Shown here piece after piece: positions 19,400-60,936 of a DNA stretch of 64,000 nt; the stretch's first letter is position 1; every line of letters starts with the position of its first letter. The DNA is from Ulva prolifera (taxonomy: Eukaryota; Chlorophyta; Ulvophyceae; Ulvales; Ulvaceae): NCBI GenBank assembly GCA_023078555.1, contig CM041201.1:6145172-6209171 (forward strand). Direction: 5' to 3'. The translations under genes were made by a program, and so were the position numbers. The notes under the pieces are model-generated. The model was given only the letters and a program-made list of their open reading frames with translations, was not told the DNA's origin and made no database searches.

Positions 19400-22561
<3,162 letters not shown>

Positions 22562-46819: not shown

Positions 46820-48267
46820 ATGAGTTCTCCGTCGCGTAATAAGCGCAGAGAAATGGATGTCATGAAACTGTGCGTTCCTGCTGAAGTATTCATGAAATAA
46901 TTTGGTCTTGCCGCAGCTCTGCAGAGCACAAATCATGCAAAGCAATTAACGTGACAAGCCAGGACACGCTCGCTCACGCGCTTGTGATTACAGGTTGATG
47001 TCAGACTGGAAGGTCGAGCTTGTCAACGATAGTACCAAAGAGCTAGAGGTTGATTTCACTGGTCCTGCAGGGAGTGCGCTTCGCAGTATGAACAATTGCT
47101 CACTGGCTTGCACCATGTCACCGGCCCTCTTGAAAAGGCGTGTCTGCCTCGCTGCATCTGAGAATCTAAACGCCTGGCTACTGCAGGTCCATATGAAGGG
47201 GGACTATGGAAAGTTCGGGTGGAGATCCCTGACAGTTACCCATACAAGTCACCATCGATCGGTTTCAAGAACAGAATTTTTCATCCCAATGTGGACGAAG
47301 CGTACGACCCTCCTCAAAACCTACTCGGTCATGTCGTTTCTGACCAATCCCGCTTGTTGAAGCGGCATGAACTTGCGGTAGGATTGTCTTGCGAAGCTGT
47401 GCATACATGTGACTCAGATTGCAATCAAAGTGTAGCCAGCACAAAGAGAGACCAAAGTGACTGATCATAGTGCATGGTACTGCTGTTCTAGAACGATGTG
47501 ATGGTCTTGCACCGCAAATCATGGTGTGTACCGTTTGCATGATATCAAACATTACATGAGGCAACTCTGCTTCAGGGCAGGATCTGTTTGCCTCGACGTC
47601 ATAAACCAAACATGGAGCCCCCTTTTCGGTGTGATCTTGCTGTCGTCGCTTTTACATGCTGAACCGATTGCGTTTGTGTGTCCCGTGACAGGCTCGTTTC
47701 GCTCGCTCAGTCACATGAGGTCTTAAATGTGGTACTGCAGAGCTCATCAATGTTTTTGAAGTTTTCCTGCCACAGCTTCTGTTGTACCCAAATCCTACAG
47801 ACCCGCTGAACGGGGATGCCGCAGCTTTGCTCATCCGCGAGCCGGAGTCTTTTGACAGAAAAGTTCGAGGTATGCAGATCAACATGTGCTTCCAGTGATG
47901 GATGTCCACATGAAGCAGGATACTAGATTTTCAATGACAATTGCAGTTGTTCGTGCTATGACATGCTGTGAGACGCTGCTGCATCTTCATGCTCATACGA
48001 TAGCGCCCAATATTACAGCTGATAGATGTGCTGAGCGCAGACTACGTGAAGAAATATGCAAGCTCGTCGGGTTCTTCTGCAACTGAACAAAATGGATCTG
48101 TCACACCCAATCCGCCAGCGACACCTTCAAAGAGGCATCAAGACGATCAATTAACAGGATGCAACAGCACTTTGGATCCACCGCTATTTGACACGGTTCA
48201 ACAAGGTAGCAGCACCTCTGATGATAACCTGGAAGGCATGTTGACAGACAGTGATGACGGCGTTTGA
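46820..48267 (+). CDS. UBE2H: Ubiquitin-conjugating enzyme E2, UBE2H / plant UBC4-5-6 type
   Basis: E2 enzymes carry activated ubiquitin on a cysteine and pass it to substrates with E3 ligases. Six exons fit: 46820-46869, 46994-47073, 47187-47301, 47576-47628, 47741-47869 and 48041-48267; all phases agree, giving 217 residues. The N-terminus [17 protein letters not shown] is typical of this subgroup. Then follow [40 protein letters not shown] and IFHPNVDE, then the catalytic block [16 protein letters not shown] with the active Cys, and [20 protein letters not shown] and [10 protein letters not shown]. The last exon gives [10 protein letters not shown] and a Ser/Thr/Asp-rich acidic tail ending LTDSDDGV, longer than but like the acidic tails of UBE2H. 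Two donors are GTGCGT and GTGCGC. It is transcribed away from the retroelements to its left. Confidence 0.97.
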
Positions 48268-48846
48268 CAGCAGCATGAAGGCTGCACTTTGCAAAATCAT
48301 TCAGTCCAGCACTTAAATCTCAATCCGTGTAACATATTTGTCATGGCTGTCGTTGGCTCGCTTCGTTTTCCCAACCACTGTTCCTTCAGTTCTAATTTTC
48401 AAAACTACTTCATGAGTTAGTCCTGCATCCTGTACACATTAGCGTCTCACGGGAACAGGCCTGAATGCCCGAACAAGCCTGCCACCTGGTCATGTAGGAT
48501 GTGATGCTACGGGGTTTCTTGTTACGGCACATCGAAACTGCATATGAAACTGGCAAGCAGGACATGGATATGAACGCAGTGAAAATCCACCCGGATGTAT
48601 GATGAAGAACACCCCGAAATCAAGATTAGCGATAGTGGTCGACTAACTTTGTATGTTCAAAGATCCATGGCATATTTCATGCCAAGCCATGAACAGCCCG
48701 GTCTAATTGTGTACTTATGCAAACAGGCGAACAATTGTTTGACCTTGTGGAGCACGCAACATTCAACACTGAGTTCACTGTCATAAGCCCCGTGTAGCAA
48801 AGACAACACACCGATTTCATCCTCACACTAGCCATGACTAGACCTA
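48268..48846. other. 3' flank of the E2 gene; no gene seen
   Basis: A 63-codon frame at 48595-48786 has no recognisable family. The region separates the E2 gene from the convergent rhodopsin-kinase gene. Confidence 0.4.
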
Positions 48847-49958: not shown

Positions 49959-52900
49959 TCAGCTCACCTGTTTCACCGCATGAGCGAGACGGGAAAATAT
50001 GGCTGTATCCTGGGCTGCTGATGCATCATTTGGCCGTAAGCGCTTCCATTGCAATGCTAGCGTGTGGAAGTCTGACCGAGCATAGCACATGTACTCCAGC
50101 ACGCGATCCATTGTTGTGATGGCGCTGTTCAGATCATCATGAACATCAAGGCCCTTCGCTCCATGCTCACCATTCAGAAGCTTTGAGCCTTCATGGCTGT
50201 GAATTTCAGAGTGCAAATCGCTCTGCAACTCCAAAATGGGCCAGAACTGGTAGACCGGTGCTGAACAATACTGCTGCGGTAGGACACGCATATTCGCTTC
50301 ATGTAGCTCGAAGTGAAGCCCTACGTTTGGATTATTCTGTGGTTCATAGCACTCAAAGGATGATTCAGGCGGTCCGCCTGACGCAACTGGAGTTGGGCCC
50401 TGCCTGTCTGGGTTGCACAATCGTTGTGGACGCAAGAGAATGTGACCTGCCGGGCATCGTGACACCAATGCCTTTGCAGCCTCCAAAGGCTCTCCAAAGA
50501 GCATGAGGCGTGACGTGTTTGGAATTGCAGACAGGCAAGTGAGCATACATGGCCCAGCTGTCACTGTGGCTGCAGGGTATGGTGCACGTGACACCTTGCA
50601 CGCCTGTAGCACAGAATGTAAGCAAGTTACCACTGTCACCATATCTGCTCAACATATTTGGTGCATCGTTTCTTGGACGCATTCGAGTGGAGTCATGCAC
50701 ACCTCTATCAACATTGCCATCGTGTTTTCTGCAAAAACATGCATTTGCTCAATGCACTCTTCTTCTGCAACGATCTCAGGGTCAGTCATGAATACCAGAC
50801 AGGTAGACCACTTTTGCACAAACAGCATTTTGTTGACGCTGCAATGAGCCTGCATCATTGGCATAACGCTGCAAATGACATCACGTGTGGCTCCTGAATC
50901 AGATTGCTCAGCTGCCGCAACATGCTCTGCCTGCAACGGTTGCATCATGATGTAGAACACAGCTGCACATGGCACAGAGATCGATACATCCTCAGCACCA
51001 TTCCGGAGCTCAACCTGCATGCACACGGTTATGGCTGCTCCTGTCACACGAAGAGCAGACAGCACTGCCATACACTAGCTTGCAGACACATCTTACCCCC
51101 ATTTGTTTAGTAACTGACAAATGCAGTAGGGACCATGGCAGGCGAGCCTCCACTTCTGTATCACACAGCTGCATTGTGTGGATGTGGGCCTGCATTATCA
51201 AACATCATGAGCCACACAGTATCTGCAGGTCCCATCTGTAGAAGACGAATATGGGTAGTACTGACCTGAACACGCATATGTAGATCTTCTCTCTGGAATG
51301 GCTTCCGAATATAATCATTGGCTCCATGTTCTAGCCCTTTCAAGACATCCTTTGTTTCCGAGTTAGCAGAAACCATCATGATTGGCAAGCTGTACCCTGC
51401 AGCAATTGTACAAGGAATGAACACCTGCAGCATACAAGCACGTGCACCTCACATGTGCTGATGTAGATATAAACAACCATTAGTTCATAACACTTTATAT
51501 TGTGCAACCTCCAGTGCATAAATATGTGAGCCTAACAAATTGCCATGTCAAAGCGGCTCCCTTTTTTGCCTGGCTTGATGATTGCATGAATGATTGCAAT
51601 AGCAAGTGCTTGCTCAAATTACAAACGTACATCGTTACTCCATTGAGCAGATTCGTGCGTCACCCTGTTCCGCGCCCAAACGAGAGGAGCTTCGTGGCAT
51701 GCGTATGATGATATGCAATCGATGATTTTGAAGACATTACCAACCAACAGCAGTGTGCACCTGGATTATTTGCATCATTCTGCACCAAGCATCTGTGACC
51801 GTCTAAGCCAGTCATTGCAACTCTGATTGAGGCCTTCTCAGCCGAGCATTCAATCTCAGGCACAACATGCAGAAAGGGCTACCATAGGCGCACCATAACG
51901 TGAGCGCATGTATTGGCACACCGAGTATCCTGACATCCCTGGCATCATGCAGTCCAACAGGACTAGGTCAGGCAACGCCGTTGCTTGCTCTAATACCGCC
52001 AGTGCTTCATGTCCATTCATTGCCTGCTGGACCCGACAACCCATCGGCTGCAATAAGTTGGAGACGACCATTTGATTGATTGGGTCATCATCAACTGAAA
52101 GGAGCAGCTGTCGCCCATATATCTGCCGATGGAAAAGGTGTTTTCGCGAAGTGGGATTATGCTGGCCAGATGCAGTCTTGATTCCAGCTAAAGGGTTCGC
52201 TAAGCACACACTCTTCTTGACTGGCATCACCGATGTGCGCGTGCTCTGAGATTCACTCTGCTGCCGTTCACCCACAAGGTCAGATACCGCGAGTGCACCC
52301 GCAAGCTTCTCATTTGCCATCTGACCCTGAAGCTGCAGGCACGGAAAGGAATAGGAATGAAATCAGTAGAAAGAAACAAAGAAGCATGCCGATGATCAAA
52401 CTGACTTCCTGAAATATGATGCAGCCCCATGCAGAGTCCAGCCTCATGACCACTTTCACAGTGTAACAAGAAAGCGCAAACATGATAACACCTTCAGAGT
52501 GGCCACATATGTAGGCATTCCCGTAGAAGGATACCAGCGGCGTAACATTGTACACAAGCATGCATGTTCACTTTGTGCACACGGGCACTGGATGGCAGAA
52601 CTTGTCCATCATTTGCAAGAACGGTAATGCCCTGACAAGGCAGTCCATGAGGTCACATGGATGACAAAGGCAGCACCAGATAATTGAAGGACCACTATTC
52701 TTCATGTGCCAACAATTGCATGAAACGCACAGTGATTCCGCTTTCCACAGGCTGCACCAGAAGCTGTCTGACCGACTTAGCTTGGCATGCTTGTGTGTCC
52801 ATGATCTCATCGTATGGCACGCCTTGTCCTACAGGCTCCTCAAGGTTTTGAATGTCATCAAGATCGAGCATGTGAATGGTTCGAGTTTCTTGTGCTATCT

Positions 52901-55900
52901 TTTCTGGCTGCGACAAAGGCAGCCGTACAGTCACCAAAGTTCCAGCCCCAACCATGCTCTTGAGAGAAATCTTGCCCCTGCAGAAATGACTCTCTGGTAC
53001 GCCTCACACGCGCTTATACGCGAGGGGCAACTACCTCTGAGCCGCAAGCAGGGTCAACACTCTGCTGCTCTGCCCTGCTGAAATTGCATGTGCCGCTGCC
53101 TTGCTGTACTTGCATTTGCTGCTCAGTTGACTCACTGAGACGTTTTCCACTCAAGCAGTACATAGTGGAGATACGTAGGCAAACACACGAGTTGAGAAGC
53201 AGCATGCCTGTGTGCTCGCACAAGCTCTTTTACAAAGTGCAATCCGAGACCTGCTCCCCCATGGGCACGCGTTGTGGTCATATCAGCCTGCTCGAAAACT
53301 CCAAAAACCTTGGGCATGACACCGGCCTCTATGCCACAGCCTGTGTCTCTCACATACAGAAAGACCATGCCTTCATCAGGTAAGTAGCCGGCTCCCACAC
53401 GTATGTACCCGGTGTGTGTGAATTTGGCTGCGTTGCTCGTCAAGTTGAATAGCACCTGCACTAATTTGCCACAGATTGGTTGGCTCAAGTGCCGAAGCTA
53501 TGCCGCCATCCATGGCAATTGTCTCGTGGAACCACTTAGCAAGCAGGCGACTGTATTCCTCAGTGATTGTTTGTACCTGCTCTATCCGGCCTGAATCTCC
53601 AGTAATTTGAGGTAAGTCATATACACGTTTGTAAACTACCACCCCTTCCTGCACGAATGGCATCACTTGCTGCATAACGTCGTCAATGACTGGAATAAGA
53701 CTGACTTCTTCATGCCTGCATACGTAAGAGACAGGCGGCTCGCAACCCATGCATTGTACGCGACACGAAGCTTCAGCAACTTACAGGTGCAACAAGCATG
53801 AGAAGCAGCATCGTGAGAACGGACTTGAGGACCAGTTGACCCTTCCTCAGCTGTGCTGCATCAAGCAAGTCATTAATAAGCTGCATCAACCGCTTGCCTG
53901 ATAGCTTAATCACACCGATTGTTGAGGCGACAGCCTGCAGACATGACAAGCGTATTGTAAAACACGACATCTAGCAGACGCAATGCATGCGCAAATCTGA
54001 AGGAATCCCTTCCTTAGCCATGTGCAGCAGTTGCTGCCGAGTGTCGAACAATCTATATTGAGTTCTACCCTTGCGCACCAGTGCAGAGCAACAACAGGCA
54101 TGCAAGCTGTGTACTCTCGGTCTAATACATTCATTTTAATCGCCACACCTGTGATAAATTTGTACCATGCTGAGCAGTTATTGCATCGGCCATCCCTATA
54201 ATGCCATTCAGCGGTGTCCGCAGCTCATGTGACATCACAGACAGGAAGCGGTCCTTCCGCTCTACTGTCAGCATCAGCTGCTTCATCGTCTCGTAAGTGC
54301 GCGACTGCTCCACGAGATGCATGTAGTACTGGAGCTTCTGCAAGAGTTGCATCATGTGAAAGCATGCCTTCACATCAGAACAATGACAAGCATCCAATTT
54401 CATCGCTGCCACGCCAGTGGATTCGATCTTCGAACGCAAGGGGAGATGGGGTTGAAAACATGTACATTGATTGTCTGCAAGGATGCCATCTTGCGCCAGT
54501 GCCCGATAAATCAAGTGACTTGAAGCTTGGTGAAACTGAACTGGAATGAAGTTATGCTTCTGCTGTAGCATTAGGCATGTCCGATTCCGTGACAACATAT
54601 GGAAACCGCCGCGGCCTTCTCCTCGTGCGGAGTAGCAGCAAGATGTGAGTTGACTTAGGTCATGCGTCTGACATCACTTCCAAGACTGGAGCACAGTGCT
54701 TCCGTGTAGCCATCAGCGCTCTCTTAGCCAGTTGACAAGCGCTGTGCACATGGAGACGAATGTGCATTGACCAATGGGGGTTATTTAATTGATAAAGAAA
54801 CATGCTACTGGATGGTTTATCAATCAAAAGATAGGCGTAATACACCTGCCCCAGGTGGTGAGAGTCCATGGTGATTAAACCAAGCAGTGAGGGATGCACC
54901 AATACATTCTGTGCAGCACGCACATGCATGTGTGTGCTTGTGCACTTTGCAAAAAAAAACTGTGCACTTTTCTCTCTCTTAACACCATGCAATTCAAAAA
55001 TTGCAGAATGGCAAATGATATCAGATGTTTGGCGAAGAGTCAGTACGAGCTACTCCTGCATGAGCGCTGATGCTTTGATTACGGGCTGCGATTTCCAGTT
55101 CCGGTCCAGCTGTAGCACCCCTCCATGCTGTAATAAACAGGCGTGTATCAGGTGAAATGTTGCCGCATTCTGAGCATTGATCCCAGACCTGTGATACTGA
55201 CCAAACGATCGCAGAGGCTGCAACAAGCCGAAGCCGGCCTGTGGCCAAGTGTACACACAAACAATGGTGGATAGATGATATCCACTACATGAAAGCTGAT
55301 GACCCACCCTTGCATGAACCAGTACAGACATTGTTTGATATCATCCCTGACAAAATCAAGATATACACAACGAGATTCGACACACCTGTGCCACTGTGAA
55401 GAACTCGGCCTCCATCAGTGATGACGTCATGCACATCTTGAGGCACCAGTCACAAATTGACCACAGAGGTTCAGACACGTAGAGCGGCAAACAGCCATCA
55501 TACGCAGCAAAGTAGATGGCTGGGAATAGCTGGTACGAAAATTGTCCAAAAACCCTGACAAAATACAGGCCTGAGAGAGAAAAGCGCCCAGAGAGTGGCT
55601 CACTTGACTCTATTGCATCTGAAAGCATTCGCCAGATATGATAACAGAGCTCAGGGAAGGGCACGCATGAGATCACCATCCAGTAAACCTTGTGCCCCCA
55701 GGATATACATGGGATGGTTGCCAACCCTCCAGCAACAAGCATGACGCTGTTCAACCACAGCACATAAATGCGCCGACGTACACTGTATGCTGAAATGTGA
55801 GATAATATCCACCTGTATGAATCGTACATTACAAAACAAATGAGGATGCTGAGACATGCTGTCACCAGATCTTCTGCGCCGAGCTTGCGTGATGCCGCAG

Positions 55901-56650
55901 CCTCACCGAAACAGGAAGTAAGGATCACACCAGATTGCGGGCATCGTGGACATGTACAGCCACCACCGAGTCGGTAAGAAAAGCACTGACTGAACATCAT
56001 GTGCAATGTAGGCCGAGCGAGTCCATAGCCGTAGGTAGCTTGTTGAAGAGATTAATGATATAAAAAAACTGATCAAAAGCAAACTTGAAGATCTTGATGA
56101 TCGTGCAAAGGCCCTGGAGCCAGTCAGAATTGATGGCTAGGTTACCCCATGTTGAATATTCCTGGCCACTACACTTGTGTGTTCAGCAGGTCTCACGCAG
56201 CCAGGTCATACACGATCCCGCATGGGAAATCCGTGGACGCCTGTCATGCCTGATTGGAAGTGGCCATTAGCAAAATTGTTCAAGTGAGATGTACTTTCGA
56301 TCGAGCCAATATCGGACTGCCCTCGCATGGCGGTCAGTGTGTCGCAGCCCTAGGAGTCGGATTGTACAGCAGGCTGTATCCGGTACTGTGGCCAAGTCCT
56401 CAACCACAGAGAGAAGCAGAATGCAGCAAGAGACGACTGATGAAGCCTAGGGTCCACATGAGCATTTAGGGAGACTGCGCACCATCGCATTATGGACAGA
56501 AGGAGGTTGCATGCGTATGCAACAGTGCAGTAGCCATACGCAATCTCCACAGACTTCGGCATTTTTGCACGCTCTTCATAGCGATACAATATGAACTCTA
56601 GTACGACACCAGATATGTGGATTGTAAGCCCAGCCCTACAAACACCAGCG
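49959..56650 (-). CDS. Rhodopsin - histidine kinase - receiver - pseudo-cyclase fusion (HKR type)
   Basis: Modelled exons: 56483-56650, 55907-56038, 55386-55812 (opsin); 54149-54337, 53825-53934, 53577-53715, from 53455 down, 52728-52977 (kinase); 51894-52332, 51266-51396 (receiver); 51097-51189 and below (linker, cyclase). Phases agree within the opsin set and from 52977 to 51097. Opsin: helices A/B in the first exon, helix C RWWLYMSTMPAIWCD, helix G SICDWCLKMCM with the retinal-binding Lys at the D...K spacing. Kinase: H-box SVMSHELRTPLNG, N-box FNLTSNAAKFT, DTGCGIE, GGAGLGL, GAGTLVTVRL. Receiver: SVDDDPINQ, phospho-Asp in LLDCMMPGMSG, MMVSANS, RKPF. Cyclase-like: AEDVSISVPCAAVFY, TAGPC, LMLFGEPLEAAKALV. 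Unresolved: the N-terminus, the opsin-kinase linker (54340-55385), the join before 52977, and the middle of the cyclase. Likely a membrane (perhaps eyespot or ciliary) photosensor; location is inference. Confidence 0.85.
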
Positions 56651-57440
56651 CTAAAAATAACGAAGCAGGTGACACCATGTTGACACGGTCACCAGTACGC
56701 CAGCAACACGAACACGGCGAAGTTGCTGCGCACGAAAGCCAGATTTGCAGCGCTTTTCGGCGCCACCAGGGGATATCTGCGCTGTGACAGTCTGCAGCGT
56801 TTGAGCTGTGTTGATCGCTTGCTTCTTGCTTCTCAAGAAACACCGCCTCGCCAGACTCCTGTTGGCCAGATTCATCCGACCTGCAGGAACTATGCACATC
56901 CATTTGCCGGTCATGATGGCACTCTGTTGTTGATCTTGCGGCCCGCCGTGGGTAGCTGTGTTATGACGTATGCAATGATTAGTTCGGCGTCACAACGGCC
57001 TCTGGCAAAGGTGATCAGCTTCTGTGCGGGTTGCAGGCAACAACAATCTCTTGTGTACAGGATTCTGGGATGTGATCCCGGTATCGTAAGCTCTACGGTG
57101 GCATACATCTCCGTTGCTGATGGGTCACAACGGTCCATGGAAACTTCGGCTTAACAATAGACGCAATAGCATGTTACCTACCAACAGCGAAGCACAGTGT
57201 TGGGGTACGTTGGCATAAAATACGTCAAATTGATTTGTCGACTTGCTGTACGCAGTTCTTGTCCCGTTGCGAGAGATGCAATTGCTTGGTACGCAGAGCA
57301 TATATGTGATGTCACGCAGAATACTTGAAATCTACTGGAGTCAACAGTAGATTGTGCAATAAAATTAATGGACCGTTGAACACGCAAAAATGTCCATTTG
57401 CCGATCAGAGAAGTAAGTGGCGGTAGGCCCGAGCGCCCTA
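56651..57440 (-). other. Likely 5' part of the rhodopsin-kinase gene
   Basis: Upstream of the acceptor at 56651 (TTCGTTATTTTTAG) a frame reads PKSAANLAFVRSNFAVFVLL, a probable extra N-terminal membrane helix, as in 8-helix cyclase opsins. A donor GTGACC at about 56692 would join in phase but leave only a 42-nt intron. A candidate start is ATG 56903 (MDVHSSCRSDESG) in another frame, needing a further intron. Not settled. From 57180 to 57440 nothing is recognised. Confidence 0.45.
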
Positions 57441-57499: not shown

Positions 57500-58866
57500 C
57501 GGGCGCACGCATGTGGTAATGACATATGTGCTATAGGGACAAAGCAAGCAAGGCAGGCAGCACCGCGAGCAACAACCAGGGGAATCGCACACCACGCAAC
57601 AAGCCACACGCAGCACACACCAACACACCCACGCAACGTCAGCACCCGCGCCGGCCACAGCCACACAGCCACACACACGACCACTGTTTCTTTGCACGGT
57701 AGCCTTGGCTGCATGTGCTTCCGGGTCTCGTGCGCCTGGCTGGTGGGCGGGGTTCGGATGGGGGTGGGCGTGTGGGTGTGGGCGTGTGTGTGGCTGTGTT
57801 ACAAAGGAAAAAGCTGGAGGGGCAGGTAGCACCGCCAGGACCAAAAGGGAGAGCATAAGAAACGCAATGCGCACGCAGCAGGAGAGCCACAGCCAACGCC
57901 AAGGCACAACGAGCACACACACACCCCCACGCTCCCACACACTACCACACGAACCACGCACCGACACCCGACCCACGCACCCACGCACCCGCACGCGGCC
58001 CAGACCCGACCCCCAACACACACACCCACACGCCAACACGCTACACGACCCCGCCGCCCGCGCGGCAGCAGCAGCCCCACGCAGCGGCCTGGCCGGCGCC
58101 GGCCCCACACGGAAGCCGACGGGGGCCCCCAGGACCCCCGCCCCAACGCCCCGATCAGGCCAGCCCCGGGCGCCGGAACAACACACACGGGGGCGCCCCC
58201 ATCCGCGGACCCACCCGGAACGGAGCACGCCCGAGGCGCGCCGTGTGCGGGGGCCGGGGCACACGGCCGCGGCAGCACACGCCGCCGGCGTGTGTGTGGC
58301 TGTGTGGCTGTGTCCGGCGCGAGTGCTGCCGTTGCGTGGGTGTTTTGGTGTGAGCTTTGTGTGGCTTGCTGTGTGGTGTGCGGTTCCCCTGGTTCTTGCT
58401 TGCGGTGCTACCTGCCTCGCTTGCTTTGTCCTTGTAAAACACACGACCACACACCCACAAACACACACAAGCCTCCCACCCAACATCCACAAGCACACCC
58501 ACACCTCCACCCCCATCCGCACCCCGCCCACCAGCCAGGCGCAAGAGCCCCGAAAGCACATGCAGCCAAGGCTACCGTGCAAAGAAACAGCGAGACCCCA
58601 ACAACCCCCGCCCCGAGGAGGTGCCCCGCCCAGCCCCTGCACACCACCCCGCCCACCCGCAAACCCACACCCGCAACCCCCACAGTCCAGCCCAGCCGGC
58701 CAAACTACCCGGCTGCGCCCCAAGGGCGGGCCACATGCAGACGCACAGGGTAGACAGCGGCGAAGCGCGGTACGCCAGAGCCGCCACCACGACAAAGCGG
58801 ACGAGGCCGCGAGCGCACGCAGCGACGACCGCCTATCAGGCAGCCCGGGCCGGCGCGCAGCGCCGC
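57500..58866 (-). repeat. GC- and CA/TG-rich LINE 3' tail with inverted modules
   Basis: Very GC-rich, low-complexity DNA downstream of the LINE stop on the reverse strand. Two modules occur twice in opposite orientation: one at 57540-57685 and 58285-58435 (GCTTTGTCC/CGTTGCGTGGGTG-like strings), the other at 57690-57810 and 58440-58600 (TTTCTTTGCACGGTAGCC and its complement). Long open frames here (393 and 476 codons) are by-products of the GC-rich composition and repeat content, not genes. Confidence 0.6.
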
Positions 58867-60290
58867 TCAGGCCGGGTGGCCTGTGAGCGGCGTAAGGTCA
58901 TCGGACGGGACTGCCAGCCCCGTCAAAACTGCCTTGCCCGCATGACATGCCATCAGCGGGGCAGCGGCGTGCACCTGCCGAGCCACAGTGCGGCACAGCG
59001 TCGTGGACAGATCGCGCATTGCATTCTCCAAGAACAGCCGCCGGGAGGCTGCGGCCGAACCTGCAGCAACGTCAGCCAGCCGATTCAGGAAGGTGCATGC
59101 GGCAGGGCCGATCCTCCCGTTTGTCTCGTGAGAGAGAGCGGCACCAGGGTGAATGCGCCGGAGCCCGCCCGGCCATACTTGTCGCGCTTGCGCTGGTCGG
59201 ACTTCGCGGCGGCGGCGCCGTCACAGGTTGCCGCTGAGCGGACATTGGAGCCGGCCAGCGGGTGAGACACGCACGCCGATCACCGGCGAGCTGCCTCGCC
59301 GATCACTGGCGAGCTGGGGAAGAACGCGAGAATGTCACCAGCCTGAGCGCCTCTGCGCAACCGGGGAGGAGGAGCCGAAGGGGCACTCCGGACGGTGGCC
59401 GATCGCTGCGAACGCTGCCTGGCCGCCAGAGGCCGCGGAGGGTCAGGGGCGTCATGCACGTGGTCCGCCGCCAACGCCGCCGTCGGTGGCGCGTGTGACA
59501 CAGGGAGCACACCCCGAGGCAGCGACAGCAGCTGCGTACGTGACAGGAGGAAGAGCCTGGGCGCCATGGGAGGGAGCGGGTGCGGCCGAGGCAGGGGAGG
59601 TGTCGGAGATAGGCTGAGCTGTTGCAGGGAGAGCCGGCCAGGGGTCGACCGCATCGTGGGCGCGGGGCGAGTGCGCGCAGAGTGCAGCGGCGCCGAGGAC
59701 GGCTGCGCCGAGGACTGCGGCATTAGCGGCGGCATTGCATGCGGGAGCAGCCGCAGGGAAGATGGAGGGCAGAGCCTGGGCGCCATGAGAGGTTGCGGGC
59801 GCGGCCGAGGTCTGGGCGGGTGACGGTTCAGTGGAGGGTGACGTGCGGGGTGCTGCCGGGCGTGCCGGGAGGCCACGGCCGAGGCCTTGCGGGATCCTGC
59901 TCAGGTGCGGTTCCACCTCGGAAGCGATGCCGCTGCGCGCGATGACGCGGCGCCACGCCTCAACGAGCAGGTTGTGGCGGGCAACAACAGTCCCCCACAA
60001 CGACTTGCAGACCAAGGAGTGGGTGCCGGACTCCCCGCTGCGGCCACAGGGGCAGTCACCATCGTCGCTCAGGCTAGGCAGCAGGGCCTCACCCAGCCTC
60101 AGACGGGCGCACACGCCGAACTCCATGTCGGACAGGCCCGTAACGGGGCCCGGGAGCGCCGTGAGCCATGCCGACGCGATGGCGCCCATGCAGCTGCGCA
60201 GGCGGGCCATCGCCGCACCAGCCCCCGCTGCAATCTGGCCGTGAGCAGCGCCTGGAAGACCGCAGCTTTTCGCAATGACATATGTGGCTT
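58867..60290 (-). pseudogene. LINE ORF2 C-terminus, 5' truncated and frameshifted
   Basis: Reverse strand, in order: MARLRSCMGAIASAWLTALP, GVCARLRLGEALLP, a zinc-type CPCGRSGESGTHSLVCKS, RHNLLVEAWRRVIARSGIAS, a long Ala/Pro/Ser-rich spacer, GDILAFFPSS, SHPLAGSNVRSAATC, KRDKYGRAGSGAFTLVPLSL, and after a frameshift FLNRLADVAAGSAAASRR, NAMRDLSTTLC, to the stop at 58867-58869. The same family end as at 40916-41600, but better preserved. No RT catalytic core is present, so it is a dead 3' fragment (its left limit near 60290 is approximate). Confidence 0.8.
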
Positions 60291-60936
60291 CAAGGCATTA
60301 ATTCAGGGAGCTGCGTCTGTGATCCACGACGATTTCCCAGTCTCCAGTATATCCGCGCCATCCGGTGTGGCCTGCCGATAGATATCCTGCTTTCATGTGT
60401 GAATGAGTTCTCATGCAATACTGCGGAGAACTTTATGCTGGTATCAGACAATCCGATCTGTCGGATTTCAGTGCTGTCCACTCTGGTGCATGTGCTCGCA
60501 TTAGCTTGCAAATATGTATCGATATCTGGAATGAGTTGCTGCTTGCAGGTTGCACAGGACCGAAGCATACATGACAGTTGTGTCCAATCACTGTCACCTA
60601 TGCGTAGCTACGCGCATCTGGGAGGTACCTTAGCATGTAGAGGCCATGTCCCAGCAAGGCGTGTGCAAGACACTGCTGGTGACATCGCATTACATTGTCA
60701 CTCGCTGCATTGGAAAAACAGTAGATAGGTTTCTTCAGTGCAGAGGAAGGGCTCACAAATTTCTGCCCCGCAACTCGAATATAAGATCCCCATGGTGGCC
60801 TTTATGTATAGGCGAACTGCACCAATTGCTAGTCATCGCAAATTATGAATTGATGTCTACATCGCACGCCAGGTCTCTTACATCACATGGCGAACAACTT
60901 TAAAGCAATCGGCAATACTACTTCCAGAATGTTATT
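60291..60936. other. No gene seen
   Basis: Open frames of 85-148 codons on the plus strand show no known family. This is the 3' flank of METTL16. Confidence 0.4.

Follow-up and report, generated by a model that had tools for sequence, protein, structure and literature searches.

Algal histidine kinase rhodopsins (HKRs) carry an opsin, a histidine kinase and a receiver in this order; a cyclase is present in some of them, as stated in a review (PMC12558739), and many without a cyclase are listed in Table 2A of PMC7693036. Cr2c-Cyclop1 (COP6) has an active guanylyl cyclase, and its positions K298, H352 and T356 are given in PMC6284317. According to the parts of the literature drawn on here, the cyclase of COP5/HKR1 from C. 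reinhardtii is inactive, with neither GC nor AC activity (PMC6284317; PMC7693036; PMC8006352), and departs from working cyclases at nearly all key residues (PMC6284317; PMC7693036). The COP5 opsin switches an attached COP6 kinase-receiver-cyclase by UV-A/blue light (PMC8006352), heterodimers have been considered for COP5 (PMC7693036; PMC8006352), and COP5 knockouts lose ammonium chemotaxis (PMC11621555). Therefore, given the inactive cyclase of COP5 and the published HKRs without a cyclase, an HKR without cyclase output is not a new situation, and the signal output of HKRs that have no working cyclase is a question best exemplified by COP5.

Here, a window of 64,000 nucleotides from Ulva prolifera (C6:6,145,172-6,209,171; genome searched, 88.9 Mb in 44 contigs) was analysed, in which a multi-exon minus-strand gene, starting near 56.9 kb and ending at 48,844, most likely encodes an HKR. 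Judged by its predicted protein, it is probably a genuine and likely functional HKR with an odd retinal pocket and no recognisable cyclase. We propose, at a probability of roughly three in four, that its opsin would drive an H359/D760 relay that is read out by phosphotransfer or through a partner, and not by cGMP of its own. As dead-cyclase HKRs (COP5) and a similar fingerprint (COP8-10) are already published, the kind is a known one.

The initial annotation placed a single reverse-strand gene at 49,959-56,650, the core of which stands while both ends had to be moved. Position 49,959 is only the stop of a read-through frame; the end of exon 14 is at 49,968, and a further two exons lead to the TAG at 48,844, so that the gene extends 1.1 kb further, and 56,650 is an acceptor and not the gene start, so that a first exon must lie upstream. 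The model comprises 16 exons with 3,945 bases, namely 1,314 codons and a single TAG at the end (Table 1). Starting with the H box exon, twelve successive minus-strand exons lead to the stop with matching phases at every join, and TGCAG/G is found at 9 of their 11 internal acceptors; four exons were placed upstream of the H box. The introns start with GT in 14 of 15 cases and with GC in one, the GC donor, CAG/GCATGC at window 53207, belonging to an intron within the kinase domain.

Several splice sites of the model are sequence predictions; exon 1 as a whole, like the starts of exons 3 and 5, was picked from several in-phase options. In a codon-use score taken against the model's own introns and trained on the kinase-receiver exons and other genes, the model frame was best in eight of nine untrained stretches, the exception being exon 1; a separate score for the first 75 bases of exon 3 was poor and did not favour the model frame. 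Exon 1, which has no homology, no favourable codon score and alternative choices, is the least certain and weakest part of the model. Exon 2 scored 90 against a paralogue on contig C2 (60 shuffles, at most 51), and its donor GTGCGC is the same as that at 51,893. For exon 3, a start at 56,038, which avoids the poor-codon stretch, was rejected, as the opsin family PF01036 scored 22.1 bits with it versus 28.7 with 56,113, which the paralogue also favours. The exon 5 start at 54,337 was picked among several in-phase acceptors with the approximate layout of Cr2c-Cyclop1 (opsin end 303, H352) known beforehand; two observations count against the model here, as the frame remains open upstream of 54,337 with codon use best in this same frame, and 55,238-55,053 holds an open frame that has no place in the model.

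The junction between helices C and D was revised in the course of the analysis. A frameshift was replaced by an intron reading, and an intron at 55,906-55,783 (132 residues from site 85 to the Lys) was discarded because the paralogue match extends into it. With the intron at 55,930-55,813, the paralogue match is gap-free over 61 residues and scores 226, versus 172 and 208 for the earlier junctions; site 85 and the Lys are then 134 residues apart, and site 96 is Ile, not Asp. This junction raises PF01036 to its highest score, which strengthens the case for the opsin and leaves the overall probability as it was, and the claim of an Asp96 is withdrawn. The column comparison with cyanobacterial rhodopsins, the motif check and the block alignment to the paralogue given below used the earlier junctions, which among the columns and motif letters affects site 96 only.

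Table 1. Predicted exons of the histidine kinase rhodopsin gene, in window positions
Feature	Position	Strand	Content	Support
Exon 1 (tentative)	56716..56903	-	ATG, acidic N-terminus, DIPWWRRKALQIW	Open frame; phase-2 donor joins exon 2 in frame
Exon 2	56483..56650	-	Additional helix TM0, then helix A	Alignment with paralogue at C2:1.297 Mb
Exon 3	55931..56113	-	Helices B and C (TRWWLYMSTMPAIW)	C2 paralogue match
Exon 4	55386..55812	-	Last part of helix C and helices D-G; DWCLK with the retinal Lys	PF01036 and paralogue
Exon 5	54149..54337	-	Coupling helix, H box SHELRTPLN (H359)	HisKA match
Exons 6-7	53934-53825, 53715-53577	-	Second DHp helix, start of ATPase domain	Phases and splice sites
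Exon 8	53208..53455	-	NAAKFT (N), DTGCGI (G1), F box, GGAGLGL (G2); GC donor	HATPase_c
Exon 9	52731..52977	-	Kinase end and linker	
Exon 10	51894..52332	-	Receiver VDDD, LLDCMMP (phospho-Asp 760)	Response_reg with exon 11
Exon 11	51266..51396	-	Receiver VSANS, IRKPF	
Exons 12-14	51189-51097, 51014-50703, 50603-49968	-	Where a cyclase domain would lie; unrecognisable as cyclase	In phase; codon use best in model frame
Exons 15-16	49898-49662, 49041-48844	-	C-terminal tail, stop TAG	In phase

Several other features were seen in the window. By eye, 46950-47464 (plus strand; ...FHPNVDE) holds exons of what we take to be a ubiquitin-conjugating enzyme (E2), whose 3' end faces that of the HKR gene. 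Just upstream of the HKR gene, an inverted repeat with arms at 57527-57791 and 58289-58590 (153 and 108 nt, 88-90% complementary) encloses about 0.6 kb and resembles a foldback or TIR element. An open frame at 59452-60297 (minus strand) with a Cys-His knuckle (CPCGRSGESGTHSLVC) resembles by eye the tail of a LINE-type retrotransposon protein. A GAC-triplet array of 3.16 kb occupies 19400-22560, with a 30-base unit containing two GAG triplets in the part read, and the AT skew is 1.0 in 20001-22000, where the plus strand has no T.

The retinal-type opsin, first recognised by the Lys in SICDWCLKMCM, was borne out by the Pfam score, the column of the Lys and a shuffle test. Against the spliced opsin with helices A to G, PF01036 (cut-off 24.6) scored 28.7 bits (E 1.1e-6); the six-frame genome search gave 26.1 bits, the open frame with helices D-G 27.3, and the earlier splice junctions 20.9-25.1 and 22.0, partly under the cut-off. 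Aligned by hhalign with a profile of eight cyanobacterial rhodopsins, the spliced opsin scored 39.4 and its 60 shuffles at most 25.8, which indicates a rhodopsin likeness beyond chance, and helices D-G alone scored 35.3 (shuffles, at most 18.9). The profile kept 8 of 11 loci, L111, L121 and L125, which phmmer with L113 missed, being dropped and L122-L124 and L126 left unused. The Lys, K305, falls in the alignment column that holds the Lys of all eight cyanobacterial rhodopsins and that of a channelrhodopsin-like protein from the same genome (L001, G000:C1:10,205,734-10,206,258, plus strand; PF01036 76.8 bits). A PDB search aligned it with the Lys of Rh-PDE at E 0.079, an unrelated enzyme ranking ahead at E 0.032; phmmer with an earlier spliced opsin matched xanthorhodopsin alone (E 0.24), and the AlphaFold model of 55,386-55,781, the D-G piece computed without relatives, had a mean pLDDT of 37.2.

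The strongest check on the predicted opsin exons is the match to the C2 paralogue (L028, G000:C2:1,296,685-1,302,968, plus strand), which has its retinal Lys in DWALK. Exon 4 is 55% identical to it over 143 aa (E 3.2e-51), and helices B-C of exon 3 are 45% identical over 53 aa (E 3.3e-6). By the paralogue alignment, TM0 and helices A to C could be accommodated in exons 2 and 3, as an extra N-terminal helix (eight transmembrane helices, type Ib) would require. The paralogue (C2:1.297-1.301 Mb) is co-linear with the window gene from TM0 to the ATPase domain and has the kinase boxes, with HATPase_c at 66.6 and HisKA at 49.0 bits in a hand-joined query, whereas its receiver-like stretch, by eye without the phospho-Asp, reached 19.0 bits in such a query versus a cut-off of 30.2. 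The shuffle filter of the block alignment was lax, as three stray open frames passed it with margins of 2-5 points and the receiver block passed at no more than 53 to 52. At third codon positions, G+C is 93% in the paralogue versus 55% in the window gene. Since the PF01036 genome search missed this paralogue, the numbers of HKR-like, HPt and opsin genes are lower bounds.

Downstream of the opsin, Pfam matched HisKA (59.4 bits), HATPase_c (80.9) and Response_reg (102.6, exons 10 and 11), and the motifs SHELRTP, NAAKFT, DTGCGI, FGVFEQ, GGAGLGL, VDDDP, LLDCMMP, VSANS and IRKPF are all present. The complete kinase and receiver of the initial annotation are thereby supported, as the H (H359), N, G1 and G2 boxes of the kinase are intact, and so are the DDD, the phospho-Asp (D760) and the Lys of the receiver. 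A 577-aa query of opsin and kinase returned the domains in order (opsin 25.9, HisKA 58.1, HATPase_c 80.9 bits), and these ordered Pfam domains on in-phase exons agree with the arrangement of the algal HKR type. The families named by the initial annotation were thus all matched in Pfam by the translated exons apart from the cyclase family. K305 and H359 are 54 residues apart with a Thr at H+4, and Cr2c-Cyclop1 has the same spacing, the same Thr and the receiver Asp; the agreement in spacing is not fully independent, its exact figure having been noticed after the acceptor was chosen.

Together, the in-phase exons and the K-H spacing suggest that opsin, kinase and receiver are probably on one polypeptide. 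The model does hold a 1,048-base intron with unassigned open frames between the opsin and kinase exons, as would be expected if these came from separate adjacent genes or if the locus were a pseudogene in decay. However, the phase-0 join yields the published K-H spacing, the paralogue shows the same order, 1,314 codons pass without an internal stop, and dN is well under dS (0.51 and 2.8 over 394 codons versus the C2 paralogue, dS being saturated), and such a split or decayed locus is very improbable.

The photosensor was said to be altered, and the pocket agrees with this, as Leu stands at the counter-ion site and Tyr replaces both tryptophans that sandwich the retinal. The window opsin keeps R82, T89, P91, P186, D212 and K216 and has Leu85 (the counter-ion site), Tyr86, Met90, Ile96 and Tyr182; sites 85, 86, 90, 96 and 182 of the C2 paralogue are Leu, Tyr, Val, Ile and Phe. 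Sites 86 and 182 are Trp in all eight cyanobacterial rhodopsins and in the hand-joined channelrhodopsin of the alga itself. In Gloeobacter rhodopsin, according to the part of PMC10510653 drawn on here, the two tryptophans sandwich the retinal and raise the isomerisation yield, which drops in the W222F variant. The helix-C site being neutral and only D212 being left, the photochemistry is possibly unusual, perhaps UV/blue or slow like that of COP5; the absorption colour is not readable from sequence.

These substitutions also bear on whether the protein senses light at all, since an opsin with Leu85, Tyr86 and Tyr182 might bind no retinal or isomerise it poorly and serve a chemosensory or constitutive hybrid kinase. 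Such a role would fit the replacement of both tryptophans in the two paralogues, the effect of W222F and the requirement of COP5 for ammonium chemotaxis (PMC11621555). Nevertheless, both paralogues keep the equivalents of Lys216 and Asp212, and each Trp of the window opsin has given way to another aromatic residue, and we consider a light-blind opsin unlikely.

Among the described opsins, COP8-10 of C. reinhardtii agree with the window opsin at seven of eight sites (L85, T89, I96, D212, Asp K-20, Ser K-12 and K216) and share its HisK and RR, Leu85 being found in Table 2B of PMC7693036 only in the Cop8 and Cop9-10 rows. They differ in having Ala90 where the window opsin has Met90, and 131 instead of 134 residues from site 85 to the Lys; COP8 in addition is reported to have N-terminal potassium-channel and cNMP domains (PMC5046144) as well as a cyclase, which were not seen in the window gene, the sequence upstream of 56.9 kb having been read by eye. 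COP5/HKR1 and Vop5 share with the window gene the opsin - HisK - RR order, the want of a working cyclase, a non-acidic site 85, T89, D212 and K216, but COP5 has Met85, Thr90, Leu96 and Glu204, and the window gene Leu85, Met90, Ile96 and Ser at K-12. COP5 is also listed with cyclase, SMC_N and SAM domains; in the window gene none of these was detected, Pfam having been run for SAM and SMC_N on the tail exons and the exon 14 open reading frame. By its predicted protein, the window gene falls outside the COP5 subtype, marked by the Met85/Glu204 fingerprint and C-terminal SAM and SMC_N.

A class III cyclase fold remnant had been proposed behind the receiver, which the analysis did not uphold: the five exons concerned (51,189-48,844) matched no Pfam family, the cyclase profile scored them under the shuffle median, and what is left is their position. 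The genome search with PF00211 gave no match at the window. Aligned by hhalign with a profile built from 80 class III cyclases, the region scored 10.35, the median of its 100 shuffles being 13.9, and the same test gave 62.1 (E 2.3e-9) for the cyclase-like domain of a hybrid kinase - receiver - cyclase-like protein (L024, G000:C2:2,041,976-2,037,900, minus strand), so that it is able to detect diverged relatives. With this region as query, a genome search at E up to 10 returned only its own gene among the best candidates scored, and phmmer against PDB gave a best E of 0.86. Three viral scans yielded no relative. A C-terminal SAM domain, suspected by eye, was discarded, as 581 of 2000 shuffles reached its score and Pfam had no match. 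Unlike Cr2c-Cyclop1 with its active guanylyl cyclase, the predicted protein has no recognisable one and, judged by sequence, does not match the 2c-Cyclop type, in which the receiver is followed by a guanylyl cyclase of class III.

It is nonetheless possible, though we think it less probable than its converse, that the region is a pseudocyclase that has kept the fold and dimerises with and regulates an active cyclase, the cyclic nucleotide coming from the partner. The region sits directly behind the receiver, the segment AGP...LMLFGEPLEAAKALVSRCPAGHILL resembles the cyclase-like domain at C2:2.04 Mb (score reached by 26 of 2000 shuffles, for a segment chosen post hoc), and a possible active partner exists at C7:2.58 Mb (PF00211 36.7 bits, both usual aspartates by eye); heterodimers of this sort are those raised for COP5. 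Against this stand the profile score below the shuffle median and the pairwise scores versus the C2:2.04 Mb protein, which 714 of 2000 shuffles reached for the whole region and 304 for its N-terminal part.

We return to the reading of an HKR with a relay output, in which the readout would do without cGMP of its own because no cyclase is recognisable behind the receiver; the strong divergence of the C-terminal region likewise makes a cGMP output unlikely. As inferred from 2c-Cyclop and COP5, retinal isomerisation would move helix G, whose extension into the kinase dimer is a coupling helix with 54 residues from Lys to His, and would alter the autophosphorylation of H359 and the transfer to D760. 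The state of D760 might then be read out via HPt phosphotransfer, or by a partner binding the receiver and the C-terminal region, a step of which we are less sure. An exit of the signal by phosphotransfer is plausible, as it fits the full relay, the want of a recognisable cyclase and the presence of an HPt gene in the genome (L109, G000:C5:3,779,237-3,779,446, plus strand; 44.9 bits, motif HELKGSAASFG), the sole clear one found.

The C2:2.04 Mb hybrid has a receiver (76.0 bits) and a PF00211 match (49.7 bits), both in hand-joined queries, and a SAM match of 15.7 bits, which is weak and under the cut-off; by eye, its G1 and G2 boxes and ATP lid are degenerate and both metal aspartates are replaced in the alignment (His, Cys), and no opsin was recognised in it. 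A bolder and quite unlikely scheme would be a cGMP-free rhodopsin phosphorelay, in which a plant-type HPt pathway receives its input from a light-gated kinase whose retinal pocket is poor in Trp (Leu85/Tyr86/Tyr182), and the HKR-like proteins split the relay among them. If this were true, trans-phosphorylation between the paralogues would be expected, since the C2:1.30 Mb protein has retained the kinase and not the receiver, and the C2:2.04 Mb hybrid combines a retained receiver with an ATP lid that is degenerate.

In conclusion, with its intact relay and much-diverged C-terminal region, the window gene would offer a clean place in which to test phosphotransfer as the output of an HKR. In addition, the altered pocket, found in two paralogues of one genome, may provide natural variants for the tuning of retinal.
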